In this document: in pieces, positions 21,109 to 27,022 of the stretch
Layout: each line of letters begins with the position of its first letter
Numbering within the stretch: position 1 is the stretch's first letter
Assembly (NCBI GenBank): GCA_017531845.1
Contig: JAFXKI010000011.1
Location: forward strand, 1-64,000
Source: Opitutales bacterium
GTDB lineage: Bacteria; Verrucomicrobiota; Verrucomicrobiia; Opitutales; UBA953
Direction of reading: 5' to 3'
Length of the DNA: 64,000 nucleotides
Notes under the pieces: generated by a model
The model's database searches: none
Told to the model about the DNA's origin: nothing
Seen by the model: the letters and a program-made list of their open reading frames with translations, nothing else
Position numbers and translations under genes: made by a program

Positions 21109-22869
21109 TTATTCTCCGTAGCGAGCACGCACTTCCGCCTCGAGATCCGCACATGCTTTTTGGAATTCCTTCTCAGAAATTTCACCGTTTTTGCGCTGAC
21201 GGGAAAGATTCTTCAATTCATTTTCAATATCTTTCAGCGTGCGGTTCGGATCAAGTGCCGGTTTTTCCGGTTCTGCAGCCGGAGCGGCAGGTTCTTCGAC
21301 AGCAGGTTCCGGCTCTGCAGCCGGAGCGGGTTCTTCACCCTCTGCAGGAGCAGGCTCTTCGGCGACCTCGGGAGCCGGTTCCGGGGCAGGCTCTTCTGTC
21401 ACGTCAGCGACAGGCTCATCAAGCAAAGCTTCTTCTTCCGAAAAATCTTCCTCTTCTGCAGTTTCTTCTCCAGCCGGAGCTTCCGCGACAGGTTCTTCGG
21501 AAACAACCACTTCCGCCGGCTCTTCAGCTACAACGGGTTCTTCAGCTACGGCAACCACTTCCGGTTCTGCTGCGGGAACGGGTTCTTCCGTAGCTTCTGC
21601 AACTTCAACGACCGGCTCTTCGGAGACAATTTCTTCCGCAACAGGTTCTTCGGCTACTTCTTCGGAAACAACCACTTCCGCCGGCTCTTCAGCTACAACG
21701 GGTTCTTCTACAACCACGTCTTCAACGACGGGTTCTTCGACTACGGCAACCACTTCCGGTTCTGACGCGGGAACGGGTTCTTCCGTAACTTCCGCAACTT
21801 CAACGACCGGCTCTTCGGAGACAATTTCTTCCGCAACAGGTTCTTCGACAACTTCTTCGGAAACAACCACTTCCGCCGGCTCTTCGGAAACGACGGGTTC
21901 TTCGGCTGCGGCAACCACTTCCGGTTCTGCCGCGGGAACGGGTTCTTCCGTAGCTTCCGCAACTTCAACGACCGGCTCTTCGGAGACAATTTCTTCCGCA
22001 ACAGGTTCTTCGGCTACTTCTTCGGAAACAACCACTTCCGCCGGTTCTTCGGAAACGACGGGTTCTTCCGTAACCACATCTTCAACGACGGGTTCTTCGA
22101 CTACGGCAACCACTTCCGGTTCTGCTACGGGAACGGGTTCTTCCGTAACTTCCGCAACTTCAACGACCGGCTCTTCGGAGACAATTTCTTCCGCAACAGG
22201 TTCTTCGGCTACTTCTTCGGAAACAACCGCTTCCGCCGGTTCTTCGGTCACAACAGGTTCTTCTGCAATCACATCTTCAACGACGGGTTCTTCGACTACG
22301 GCAACCACTTCCGGTTCTGCTGCGGGAACGGGTTCTTCCGTAGCTTCTGCAACTTCAACGACCGGCTCTTCGGAGACAATTTCTTCCGCAACAGGTTCTT
22401 CGACTACTTCTTCGGAAACAACCGCTTCCGCCGGTTCTTCAGCTACAACGGGTTCTTCTGCAATCACGTCTTCAACGACGGGTTCTTCGACTACGGCAAC
22501 CACTTCCGGTTCTGCCGCGGGAACGGGTTCTTCCGTAACTTCCGCAACTTCGACGACCGGCTCTTCGACGGGCAGGAGCTCCGGAACGGGATAGTCTTCG
22601 AGGAAGGAACAAAGACCGTCCGCATCCTCCCAAGATTCCATGAGCATTTCCTCGGACTTATACCCGTCCTTAGAAAAAACGACCGTATGCGCCGTCGGCG
22701 TGGCGGTGCGATCTACTTCAAAAGTAAGCGGCGTAACACCGATTTCCGTCCCGTCAACCGTGACGGTAACGCCGTCCTGGTCTGCGAAATTAATGGTTTG
22801 AGTAGTTGCCGTGCACCCTGCAAAAGCGGCACAAAGCGTAACAAGTGTGAGGCTGGGGAATAATTTCAT
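21109..22869 (-). CDS. Lipoprotein with PEGA-like domain, six acidic repeats and SHOCT-like tail
   Basis: The 586-residue protein has a lipoprotein signal peptide ending in the lipobox AFAGC (Cys18). A PEGA-like beta domain (about 25-75, VTVTVDGTEIGVTPLTF) follows. Then comes a long Glu/Val/Pro/Ala region made of six repeats: four of about 65 residues and two shortened by about 10 residues, each opening with EPVVEVAE. The last about 45 residues form a charged helical pair (LKDIENELKNLSRQRKNGEI...) like a SHOCT tail. The acidic repeat probably forms an extended spacer holding the PEGA domain away from the membrane or wall. The neighbouring gene at 22943 has the same PEGA plus SHOCT plan without the repeats. 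A long Ser/Thr frame on the other strand is a by-product of the repeat. Confidence 0.75.
   Translation of the reverse strand: MKLFPSLTLVTLCAAFAGCTATTQTINFADQDGVTVTVDGTEIGVTPLTFEVDRTATPTAHTVVFSKDGYKSEEMLMESWEDADGLCSFLEDYPVPELLPVEEPVVEVAEVTEEPVPAAEPEVVAVVEEPVVEDVIAEEPVVAEEPAEAVVSEEVVEEPVAEEIVSEEPVVEVAEATEEPVPAAEPEVVAVVEEPVVEDVIAEEPVVTEEPAEAVVSEEVAEEPVAEEIVSEEPVVEVAEVTEEPVPVAEPEVVAVVEEPVVEDVVTEEPVVSEEPAEVVVSEEVAEEPVAEEIVSEEPVVEVAEATEEPVPAAEPEVVAAAEEPVVSEEPAEVVVSEEVVEEPVAEEIVSEEPVVEVAEVTEEPVPASEPEVVAVVEEPVVEDVVVEEPVVAEEPAEVVVSEEVAEEPVAEEIVSEEPVVEVAEATEEPVPAAEPEVVAVAEEPVVAEEPAEVVVSEEPVAEAPAGEETAEEEDFSEEEALLDEPVADVTEEPAPEPAPEVAEEPAPAEGEEPAPAAEPEPAVEEPAAPAAEPEKPALDPNRTLKDIENELKNLSRQRKNGEISEKEFQKACADLEAEVRARYGE
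21480..22590 (-). repeat. Tandem repeat, unit 195 bases (short form 165), about six units
   Basis: The DNA behind the acidic repeats has a 195-base unit; two units lack 30 bases. Units are nearly identical at the DNA level. Each holds one CGGGAACGG word in the codons for Val-Pro-Ala. Unit number is likely to vary between strains by recombination. Confidence 0.85.
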
Positions 22870-23941: not shown

Positions 23942-25150
23942 CTACATCCAGCGCTTGACACGGAAGAAAATAACCGACGCGACAATGAATGCGACCATCA
24001 CCCCGAGCGTTACGAAATATCCGTATTCCGTATTTAATTCGGGAATGTTCTTAAAATTCATCCCGTAAATTCCGGCAATACAGGTCAACGGAACAAAAAT
24101 CGCAGTAACGACGGTCAGCACGCGCAAAACATCGCTCGTATGCCGCTCATGCTCGGTGTGATAAAAATCCTGAAGCTCCTGCAAAATCATACGCGCGTGC
24201 TCTATACGGTCAAACGCCCGCAACGTATGGTCATAAAGGTCGGAAAAATACATATCCATTTCCGGCGGCAACATCGGATGGTCGTAACGCTCGAACGTAC
24301 GGACCATGTCCCGAAGCGGATAAATCATACGCCCGAGGCGAATCACGAGGCGTTTCATACGATAAACGGTGCGAATATTTTCGCCTTCCGTGTCCGGATC
24401 GGAATCATCCCTTACTGTATCTTCCTCAAGATCCGTAATTGCGTCTTCAATTTCATCGGTCAGGTGAAGCATACGGTCAACGAGCGCGTCAATGAGCGCG
24501 TAAAGGAGATACGGCGAGCCCCACTTGCGGATTTTTCCGGAGTTTTCCGCAATTCGCCGCTCAATGTTTTCAAAAACAAGCTCCCGCTTTTCGTGAAAGG
24601 AAATAAGGAAGTTCGGACCTGCGACAAAGGAAATCTGCTGCCCGCGGGGCTGGAGTTCTTCCACCCCGAGGCGCACGGCACGCGTTACCGCAAGAATCAT
24701 CTCTCCGTATTCTTCAAACTTCGGTCGCGACCACTCGGAAACAATATCTTCCTGTGCGAGCATAGGGATATTGAACAACGCACCGACAACATGCACTTGT
24801 TGCGGGTCTTTCATCCCCATCATCTGCACCCAAACCATGCCCGGGCGGTTGGCAAAATCGCTTAAGCGATCCGCATCCGAAAACTCATCGAGCGAATATC
24901 CGGACTCATCATAACAGACCACACGAAATTGAGCCGTTTCCTGCGTATCAAACGGAGACTCAATCGGAAGCGCTCCCGGCTCAAGTCCGATTTCCATCGC
25001 ATCATCTTCCTCCACAAGCGGGGAAGGAGACAACGTTCCCGCGTTTTTCGGAAAAAACTTTTGGAGATACGGGCGAGCCTTCCGACGCAGAAAGCGTTTA
25101 AAGTGAACCCATGCCGTGCGACGCCGGCGCATGTATCTTTTTCGTGTCAT
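23942..25150 (-). CDS. corA: CorA-type magnesium/cobalt transporter
   Basis: CorA forms a pentameric Mg2+ channel in the inner membrane. The 402-residue protein has a long cytoplasmic N-terminal domain, with an extra basic, low-complexity start of about 60 residues. Two C-terminal transmembrane helices follow, with the signature GMN at 363-365 at the end of the first. The C-terminus VKRWM is basic as usual. It starts 30 bases after the stop of the diadenylate cyclase gene on the same strand, so the two are probably cotranscribed. Confidence 0.93.
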   Translation of the reverse strand: MTRKRYMRRRRTAWVHFKRFLRRKARPYLQKFFPKNAGTLSPSPLVEEDDAMEIGLEPGALPIESPFDTQETAQFRVVCYDESGYSLDEFSDADRLSDFANRPGMVWVQMMGMKDPQQVHVVGALFNIPMLAQEDIVSEWSRPKFEEYGEMILAVTRAVRLGVEELQPRGQQISFVAGPNFLISFHEKRELVFENIERRIAENSGKIRKWGSPYLLYALIDALVDRMLHLTDEIEDAITDLEEDTVRDDSDPDTEGENIRTVYRMKRLVIRLGRMIYPLRDMVRTFERYDHPMLPPEMDMYFSDLYDHTLRAFDRIEHARMILQELQDFYHTEHERHTSDVLRVLTVVTAIFVPLTCIAGIYGMNFKNIPELNTEYGYFVTLGVMVAFIVASVIFFRVKRWM

Positions 25151-25180: not shown

Positions 25181-26557
25181 TTAAACCGTTCTCGACACGG
25201 AGCGATCAAGCAAAACTATCGGCTCTCCGTGGCGAAAAAGAGTAACTTGCCCGGACGAAGAAACACAAACCGCCGTACAATCCGCGACCGATGAAATCGC
25301 CGCCGCCGCCGCATGACGCGTCCCCAAACCGGACTGCAGAGAAAGATGAGAATCCACCGCTGTAAGACGGCTTCCTGCGGAATACACCGCTCCGTCTCCG
25401 TCAATGACAAACGCACCATCAATCAACGCCCATTCCTTTATCGTTTCTTCGATAAACGGATTGAGGATATTCCGGTCTTCCGCGCGATACCCGCTGAACG
25501 GATTCATCACCAACTGCTCAATATACGGAGTGATTTTTTCCAAATCTCCAAGCACCAAAATCGTCCCAACCGGCTTCCCCTCGCGCCCTTCCGCGGCGAG
25601 CTCGGTCGCGATCCCGATCGCACGTTCAAGCACCTCCGGACGCACATGCGCGGGAACGAACGAGCTTCCTCGCTTTACCATAATCGAGGGGAACTCCTGC
25701 GCCGCCTCAATCACGATCATCGAATCCAACTTGTTACTTCCGTCCCCGCCGCCAAGACAGCAGACACGATCCGTCGACTTGATACTTCCGCGCATCAGCC
25801 CGACAAACAACGCCGCCCGCAACTGAGACATACGGTGAGAACCGTAAGAGCTGACATGAATAACCTCCGGCTTTTTCCCGGAAGGATAAATAAAATCCGT
25901 ATTGCTTTCCGAAACAATAATCGTTCGGAAGGATGTTTCCGTCGGATCCGTCAATGACACGGTAGACGAGAACGTATCCGCAAAAAACAGTAAGACCTGA
26001 CAGCGCGTTGCCTTCGCCAAACGCGCCGCCGTCTTTGCAAACTGCCGATTCCACCGCGTTTCCTGCAATTTGGAAGATTGCTCCGCTCCACGGAAAATCT
26101 GCATAACTTCGCGACGAAACGCATTTAAATCGCCGACTTTCGCCAGCACCGTTTCATCCTCATCCTCAAGTTCGTGAACCAAGGACGAAAGCACCGTCAG
26201 ATAACGCCGCCCGTGCTTAGGCGCCAAAACAAGAAATATCACGCGAAACCCGGAAACGGTTCCCGCATCTTTTTCGCTCCCACCTTCCTCCGCGGAAACA
26301 GGATTCGGCAAGCGTCCGACGGCAATCACCGTCGTCTGCACCAGCGACGTGCACACACTCGGCAACAATGCCCAATCCCCGACTCTCCGCTGCATCTGCG
26401 CTTCCCGCGCGATCAGCTCCACTCGAAGCTGAGCACGCTCCTCATCCGGCGTTCCCGCCGGCAAAGCCACCGCAAGTAATTCGTCCAGCGCCGACGGCAA
26501 CTCCCGACTCTTCAAATCAAGAATTCTGTTCTTCGATAAAAACCGATCAATGCGCAT
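25181..26557 (-). CDS. Diadenylate cyclase (DacZ-like) with EIIA-like N-terminal domain
   Basis: The C-terminal part (about 300-458) is a DAC domain, which makes cyclic di-AMP from two ATP. It has the DGAFVI motif at 380-385, SAGSRL, and GTRHAAA at 412-418 (RHxxA type). It is preceded by an alpha/beta domain as in DacZ (phrases ATELAAEGREGKPVGTILVLGD and NPFSGYRAEDRNILNPFIEETIKEW). The first about 150 residues resemble a PTS EIIA type 2 (PtsN) fold, but the place of the active His reads ALLPS, so phosphotransfer is unlikely; it may be a sensor. The domain assignments are from motif reading. The protein has no membrane helix. Transcription continues into corA, which fits the known link between c-di-AMP and ion balance. 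Confidence 0.8.
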   Translation of the reverse strand: MRIDRFLSKNRILDLKSRELPSALDELLAVALPAGTPDEERAQLRVELIAREAQMQRRVGDWALLPSVCTSLVQTTVIAVGRLPNPVSAEEGGSEKDAGTVSGFRVIFLVLAPKHGRRYLTVLSSLVHELEDEDETVLAKVGDLNAFRREVMQIFRGAEQSSKLQETRWNRQFAKTAARLAKATRCQVLLFFADTFSSTVSLTDPTETSFRTIIVSESNTDFIYPSGKKPEVIHVSSYGSHRMSQLRAALFVGLMRGSIKSTDRVCCLGGGDGSNKLDSMIVIEAAQEFPSIMVKRGSSFVPAHVRPEVLERAIGIATELAAEGREGKPVGTILVLGDLEKITPYIEQLVMNPFSGYRAEDRNILNPFIEETIKEWALIDGAFVIDGDGAVYSAGSRLTAVDSHLSLQSGLGTRHAAAAAISSVADCTAVCVSSSGQVTLFRHGEPIVLLDRSVSRTV

Positions 26558-26579
26558 TTTTTTTACAGAGACTCAGGTT

Positions 26580-26615
26580 AAAAAAAAAGCAGGCGGAAAT
26601 TTAATTCCGACCTGC
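26580..26615 (-). terminator. Terminator of nuoA
   Basis: GCAGG and CCTGC with inner CGGA/TCCG form a hairpin (26589-26615). On the minus strand it is followed by nine U. It lies eight bases beyond the nuoA stop. Confidence 0.85.
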
Positions 26616-26623
26616 CGTGAAAA

Positions 26624-27022
26624 TTATCGCTCCCAGTCGAGTGCGCCCTTCTTCACTTCATACCACAGGCCGAAAATAACAATACCTATGAAAACGGCCA
26701 AAGACCAAACAATCGTCAATCCCAAGCCTTGAGCAAGGAAATCACGATAAATCAACGCCGACGGAATCAAAAACACGACTTCGATATCGAACAAAATAAA
26801 CAGCATCGCCGTCAGGTAAAACCGCACGGAAAAACGCGGATGCACAGTCCCCTCTCCCTTCAAACCGCATTCGTAAGGAAGCTTTTGAGAACAGTTAGAA
26901 CGCCCTTTTTGACCGAAAATGTGGCTCGCAATAATAATCAGCACCGGCAACGCACAGCCGATGATGACTTGCACCAAAATCGGGAAATAACTTGTCAAAT
27001 TCGAGTCGGACATATCGCCCAT
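26624..27022 (-). CDS. nuoA: NADH-quinone oxidoreductase subunit A
   Basis: NuoA is a small three-helix membrane subunit of complex I. From the ATG at 27022 the product is 132 residues; ATG 27013 is an equally possible start. The signature loop YECGLKGEG followed by RFSVRFYLTAMLFILFDIEVVF is intact. It stands alone with its own terminator, far from nuoGHI at 8.5-12 kb and with no nuoB next to it. Confidence 0.93.
   Translation of the reverse strand: MGDMSDSNLTSYFPILVQVIIGCALPVLIIIASHIFGQKGRSNCSQKLPYECGLKGEGTVHPRFSVRFYLTAMLFILFDIEVVFLIPSALIYRDFLAQGLGLTIVWSLAVFIGIVIFGLWYEVKKGALDWER

Follow-up and report, generated by a model that had tools for sequence, protein, structure and literature searches.

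The signals that set diadenylate cyclase activity are, to our knowledge, largely open. In E. coli, unphosphorylated PtsN binds TrkA and inhibits it. Three sources describe PtsN of Proteobacteria as acting on the potassium proteins TrkA and KdpD (PMC7900238; PMC13104625; PMC9239096), and a discussion in the first sets PtsN-type and c-di-AMP control of potassium side by side, in different bacteria (PMC7900238). Among diadenylate cyclases, one further source gives the DacZ class a pyruvate-kinase-C-like N-terminal fold and bacterial relatives, relays a report that Haloferax volcanii DacZ makes c-di-AMP, and names five DacD representatives that are, by name, Verrucomicrobia or Opitutae (PMC6741144). 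Two genera among these representatives can be placed close to the DNA studied here: Lacunisphaera belongs to Opitutales, and Coraliomargarita to the class that contains it, Opitutia. The 2013 work of Corrigan and Gruendling is said to have drawn the DacD class with a PTS EIIA domain. Our literature search, which covered titles and the starts of abstracts and had most subscription reviews outside its reach, returned no paper on an EIIA-cyclase fusion and none linking Opitutus with c-di-AMP.

The window—the whole stretch of 64,000 nucleotides analyzed, from an Opitutales bacterium—contains a gene that would bring these two systems together in one protein. The features of its locus all lie on the minus strand:

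23942..25150, minus strand: corA, CorA-type Mg2+/Co2+ transporter (PF01544, 208.7 bits; TIGR00383, 213.6 bits, cut-off 200.75)
25181..26557, minus strand: gene for a predicted EIIA-DacZ_P-DAC diadenylate cyclase (458 aa, ATG start; near-full-length matches across the order)
25223..25597, minus strand: DAC catalytic domain, residues 321–445 (PF02457, 65 bits, cut-off 27)
25313..25318, minus strand: RH of the RHxxA motif, residues 414–415 (present in 150/150 order proteins; letters checked)
25412..25420, minus strand: DGA motif, residues 380–382 (D380 and G381 in 150/150, A382 in 134/150; letters checked)
25706..26038, minus strand: DacZ_P domain, residues 174–284 (PF21755, 32.4 bits, cut-off 27.4)
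26087..26557, minus strand: EIIA-2/PtsN-fold domain, residues 1–157 (PF00359, 24.2 bits, with a PtsN fold match at Z 16.2; end set by eye on the model)
26357..26359, minus strand: codon for Ser67, at the phospho-histidine place (from alignments; letters checked)
26579..26616, minus strand: element resembling an intrinsic terminator, a hairpin with a T-run in the gap from nuoA to the cyclase gene (−17.5 kcal/mol; z −4.4 relative to shuffled sequence)
26624..27022, minus strand: nuoA, NADH-quinone oxidoreductase chain 3 (PF00507, 94.3 bits; start codon set by eye)

The three-domain EIIA-DacZ_P-DAC layout of 25181–26557 is confirmed: Pfam places PTS_EIIA_2, DacZ_P, and DAC in that order along the window protein, and plus-strand frame 1 across the same interval is broken by stops. 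A sequence-only reading of this DNA, which gave no strand, had proposed that a DacZ-like part precedes a DAC domain bearing DGA and RHxxA motifs, and both parts are recovered above their Pfam cut-offs. Against PF00359 (PTS_EIIA_2, cut-off 27), the window protein scores 24.2 bits (E 3.5e-5) in the Pfam search; the genome search puts it at 27.0 bits, and in relatives the EIIA part scores as high as 93.6 bits. Among 43 diverse relatives (alignment A1), Pfam finds DAC in 43, DacZ_P in 41, and PTS_EIIA_2 in 40, with no PTS_EIIA_2 match in the other three. Loss of the DAC active residues, which would have counted against a cyclase, is not seen in the alignment: D380, G381, R414, and H415, along with G324, E326, G412, and S433, are identical in 150/150 order proteins. 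The window's own genome contains exactly one DAC match; because no other DAC-domain protein was found there, this is probably its only c-di-AMP synthase.

The N-terminal domain is predicted to have an EIIA-2 fold. For an AlphaFold model of residues 1–165 (alignment of 40 sequences; pLDDT 76), the top solved matches in Foldseek and VIA-align are PtsN/EIIA-Ntr structures, among them 3urr_B (E 1.4e-7, Z 16.2, rmsd 2.2 over 139 residues) and 1a6j_A (Z 16.2, rmsd 2.5 over 140 residues). Anion exchanger and BTR1 cytoplasmic domains also match, at Z of about 10 to 13, under the best PTS entries. Since PtsN structures rank first in the fold search, the earlier assignment of residues 1–150 to a PtsN/EIIA-2 fold is not refuted, and the model matches bear it out. 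The same reading had noticed that the phosphoryl histidine is missing and that ALLPS stands at the site; our alignments agree, with Ser67 at that place.

Searching genomes with the window protein gave matches in 156 of the 177 genomes of the order (taken to be Opitutales), most of the listed matches covering residues 1 to about 455; proteins were read from 150 of these 156 genomes. Seven of the 150 are short (<350 aa): two lie at a contig end (G295, G409), one has an inner stop (G425), and four are whole (G303, G325, G363, G393). In families f77 and f78, which have reduced genomes of about 1 Mb, the cyclases are 303–343 aa long (L101, L102, L103, L228) and therefore too short for an EIIA domain. 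A survey of 52 order genomes for DAC found a match in 49, exactly one in 46 of these 49 and two in G179, G208, and G261.

Outside the order, the architecture extends to family f10 of the same class, where 7/7 genomes match over residues 1–452 and the site histidine is present in 7/7. Two further families of the phylum, f89 and f132, were represented by one protein each in the Pfam search; both show EIIA and DAC above cut-off, with DacZ_P above cut-off in the f89 protein and below it, at 22.7 bits, in the f132 protein, and three f89/f132 proteins carry the site histidine. A pair of genes, with products of about 281 and 449 aa, clusters with the cyclase in f89 (L118, L119), with one gene between and a permease-like gene nearby; in L118 an EIIA domain lies in the longer one. 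Most other families of the class, f10 excepted, carry a higher-scoring DAC type (PF02457, E about 1e-30 to 1e-41), which we take to be the CdaA type. Among named records, the relatives are MAGs labeled "Opitutales bacterium" (rectal samples of deer and goat) and one "Verrucomicrobia bacterium" MAG; Methanoregula is related by the DAC part only. The DAC protein of the Methanoregula loci L005 and L006 is 567 aa long, and in L005 Pfam identifies a response-regulator, a PAS, and a DAC domain, making it a cyclase whose input is of the two-component type.

Most members of the family retain the residue that the window protein has lost. Among the 150 order proteins, the phospho-histidine is kept in 115 and changed in 28, the remaining 7 being the short proteins; the loop around it has the consensus G-x-G-[VIC]-x-[LIMV]-P-H-x-R. 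The site is changed in all six proteins from the window's genus (Ser in four, Asn, Cys), and the histidine is kept in G398, the one other DAC-bearing genus of the window's family. Several lineages, the window's genus included, thus have no phosphorylatable histidine and keep their cyclase residues. The label "inactive," which the sequence-only reading had given to the EIIA-like domain, fits the window's genus and a few other lineages but not the family. Its suggestion of a phosphotransfer sensor on a cyclase is likewise better reworded: because 115 of 150 proteins keep the phospho-histidine, the layout is possibly that of a phosphorylation-controlled cyclase, whose input has been lost in the window's genus.

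The proteins that would deliver the phosphate are widespread in the order. Enzyme I (PF05524) was found in 132 of the 177 genomes, HPr in 142, and EIIA_2 in 145; here and below, where enzyme I, HPr, PgpH, or DAC is called absent, the searches were of draft genomes 50 to 100% complete. Proteins with the histidine kept come from 101 genomes with and 14 without enzyme I, those with it changed from 12 with and 16 without, and the short ones from 1 with and 6 without. Loss of the histidine and loss of enzyme I are associated (Fisher p 9e-9, kinship ignored), an association that is suggestive only, as tree-aware tests are not significant. On a tree built from the remainder of the protein, the site switches state 11 times. 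An independent-pairs test gave a median p of 1, with too few informative pairs; changes per branch length were 7 in 16.7 for rows lacking enzyme I versus 4 in 30.1 for rows with it (p 0.06), leaning to the former. A strict rule of "no enzyme I, no histidine" was rejected: 14 histidine-keeping proteins come from genomes where enzyme I was not matched, and six of these belong to f65, a family in which 6/9 proteins show this combination. The strict rule is also broken by the window's genus, f62, and G422, which have lost the histidine with enzyme I present.

Histidine, enzyme I, and HPr occur together for 95 of the 150 proteins. In 52 of these 95 genomes, drawn from 14 families, there is a single EIIA_2 match; this match is the cyclase's own frame in the 42 of 52 genomes where its place was listed, and was assumed to be so in the other 10. 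The fused domain is thus apparently the only EIIA-2 match in 52 HPr-bearing genomes. The other 43 genomes have further EIIA_2 matches, so that the relay may serve other proteins there.

A degenerate enzyme I or HPr was considered as the cause of the change in the window's genus and rejected: in the four of its six genomes that were read (G000, G150, G256, G407), enzyme I (TSH) and HPr (GIHARPA) both keep their histidine. The window's own genome, G000, also has a second, free PtsN-like EIIA with an intact GLALPHGR motif, at G000:C1:110899-111270 (L236) on the minus strand, immediately ahead of a gene for a ClC chloride channel. Comparable free EIIA genes are present in G150, G183, and G359, making four of the six genomes of the genus with G000; no second, free EIIA match was found in G407 or G256.

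The wider genomic context points to potassium, and less to magnesium, as the putative output. A PgpH-type hydrolase (PF07698) is present in 156 of the 177 order genomes and tends to accompany the cyclase: 147 genomes have both DAC and PgpH, 9 have DAC only, 9 PgpH only, and 12 neither (Fisher p 4e-8, kinship ignored; one PgpH-less and one DAC-less genome entered from tallies only). Within the window's family, all 7 genomes with DAC have both PgpH and TrkA_C, whereas 8 genomes of genera g2 and g138 (94–99% complete; G098, G251, G351, G371, G382, G390, G416, G423) gave no DAC, PgpH, or TrkA_C match. This pattern in g2 and g138 seems to reflect loss of the whole c-di-AMP/RCK potassium circuit, a natural knockout, and the joint absence may represent a single event. 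PgpH and TrkA_C are present and a DAC match is absent in G145, a genome 98% complete.

Under the stricter of our search filters, c-di-AMP riboswitches were found in 8 of the 177 order genomes and not in the other 169. Seven of the eight carry the cyclase; the eighth, G299, is 50% complete and has no cyclase match. The same-strand ORFs after the eight riboswitches encode TrkH in four cases, K_trans in one, AA_permease_2 in two (one of these in G299), and Band_7 in one. Five of the seven relatives that combine cyclase and riboswitch therefore have the riboswitch ahead of a K+ transporter gene.

The best explanation of these observations is probably, and we hold it with moderate confidence, an EIIA-fed cyclase that receives a PEP relay and sets K+ transport, and that in the window's genus has been left with no phosphate input. 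Phosphate would pass from PEP through enzyme I and HPr to the N-terminal EIIA-2/PtsN domain of the cyclase family, and the phosphorylation state of that domain, relayed via DacZ_P, would tune the DAC domain. The c-di-AMP so made would act on K+ transport by way of TrkA_C (RCK_C) proteins, in some species also via riboswitches before K+ transporter genes, and would be degraded by PgpH. Directly observed are the domain make-up, the invariant catalytic residues, the pattern at the histidine site, and the co-occurrences; from these we infer the enzyme activity, the transfer of phosphate to EIIA, the direction of the effect, and the potassium outcome; for the direction, our guess, by analogy with PtsN and TrkA in E. 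coli, is that unphosphorylated EIIA would raise c-di-AMP. In the window's genus, where the histidine is replaced (by Ser67 in the window protein) and enzyme I and HPr are still in place, joined in four of six genomes by the separate histidine-bearing PtsN-like EIIA, the fused domain may serve as a scaffold or docking surface blind to phosphate, which either holds a single fixed state or is read by a different partner.

A broader proposal is put forward tentatively, at a little short of even confidence. In the order and in some other Verrucomicrobiota, the PEP relay would in many genomes have a diadenylate cyclase as its end point, so that c-di-AMP would record metabolic state directly and pass it on to potassium transport; the link between PtsN and K+ and that between c-di-AMP and K+ would be joined in one protein, and several lineages would then have cut the phosphate input and kept the cyclase. 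If true, this would unite two potassium-control systems so far placed in different bacteria. A cyclase that carries a PTS domain points to both a testable input (PEP, enzyme I, and HPr) and a testable output (K+ transport), for which lineages lacking the histidine, the EIIA domain, or the whole pathway are natural controls.

The alternative that survives best concerns the window's genus itself, where the EIIA domain could be decaying and functionless, leaving a cyclase that is constitutive or controlled only via DacZ_P or by transcription. We regard this as possible, if somewhat doubtful. Identity of the EIIA part to the consensus of histidine-keeping proteins is 0.34 in the genus versus 0.59 in the reference set, the third lowest value of six groups, and Y58, L59, and G62 are lost along with H67 in 6/6 proteins, R69 in 5/6; the four f77/f78 proteins too short for the domain also fit a history of decay. 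However, the reading frame is open over its full length in 6/6 genomes of the genus, DacZ_P has diverged there about equally (0.38), and the window domain is still modeled as a PtsN fold, though the relatives' alignment helps that model.

Less probable, and in our judgment unlikely, is that EIIA serves throughout as a phosphate-independent docking or dimerization module, with the histidine contributing binding geometry and partners such as K+ channels or HPr setting cyclase activity. Replacement of the histidine by tyrosine in f62 (5/5) and f79 (8/10) is what such a module would allow: Y58, L59, G60, G62, P66, and R69 are kept in every one of these proteins, so the domain stays under selection with no phosphorylatable histidine. 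R11, E26, L27, G81, R82, Y119, and L123 are likewise kept in 6/6 proteins of the window's genus despite the loss of the loop. Yet conservation of P66, H67, and R69 rounds to 100% in the 101 rows with both histidine and enzyme I, and most genomes have enzyme I and HPr as well, which plain docking does not need.

The neighborhood of the gene was compared across 84 loci (88 less four repeats), including 8 genomes outside the order; many of these loci have a flank of 1–1.5 kb, and the counts are lower bounds. Directly upstream of the cyclase gene and on the same strand, nuoA is found in at least 59 of the 84 loci (63 less the same four repeats; e.g., L113, L130, L131). The terminator-like hairpin between the two genes leaves about 20 bases before the ATG, so that read-through, or a promoter further upstream, would drive the cyclase. 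No RNA element was found at the locus, two tRNAs being the only elements in the window over the Rfam cut-offs. Elsewhere in the window, a 586-aa ORF at 21109–22869 (minus strand) consists mostly of repeated acidic EEPV-type units.

Downstream, corA begins 30 bases past the cyclase stop on the same strand, as the sequence-only reading had noted and the coordinates confirm, and the adjacency is found in at least 5 of the 84 loci, all in the window's genus (5/6 genomes; not G256). That the pair is a control unit in which c-di-AMP or the state of the cyclase governs Mg2+ uptake is very improbable, despite the short gap and its recurrence within the genus: the arrangement was not found in the other 79 loci, many of them with flanks of 1–1.5 kb, and no CorA domain beyond the transporter family scores above cut-off in Pfam or NCBIfam. 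Being limited to one genus among the 84 loci, the pair says little on general function; a general dac-corA unit is rejected, and the earlier suggestion that magnesium uptake may fall under the same control seems improbable beside the evidence for potassium.

Set against known systems, the catalytic core appears nearest to DacZ. In Haloferax volcanii DacZ and M. jannaschii CdaZ, as in the window protein, DacZ_P precedes a DAC domain that has the DGA motif, and the best NCBIfam match of the window protein is DacZ (NF041371). At 87.3 bits against an equivalog cut-off of 430, however, the window protein is not filed as DacZ itself; unlike DacZ and CdaZ, it is bacterial and has an extra N-terminal EIIA domain. 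CdaA-type cyclases share the DAC domain but have no EIIA. With PtsN/EIIA-Ntr of the nitrogen PTS, the family has in common the fold, in most relatives the phospho-histidine loop, and the theme of K+ control; it differs in that the domain is fused to a cyclase and, in the window's genus, has no phospho-histidine, and the enzyme I and HPr considered here may be of another type. The EIIA-DacZ_P-DAC architecture is probably the class DacD of Corrigan and Gruendling (2013), of which the window protein would be a member with no phospho-histidine. The present analysis adds the pattern of histidine retention and change, the co-occurrence with enzyme I and HPr, the concerted lack of pathway matches in sister genera, and the neighbor statistics.
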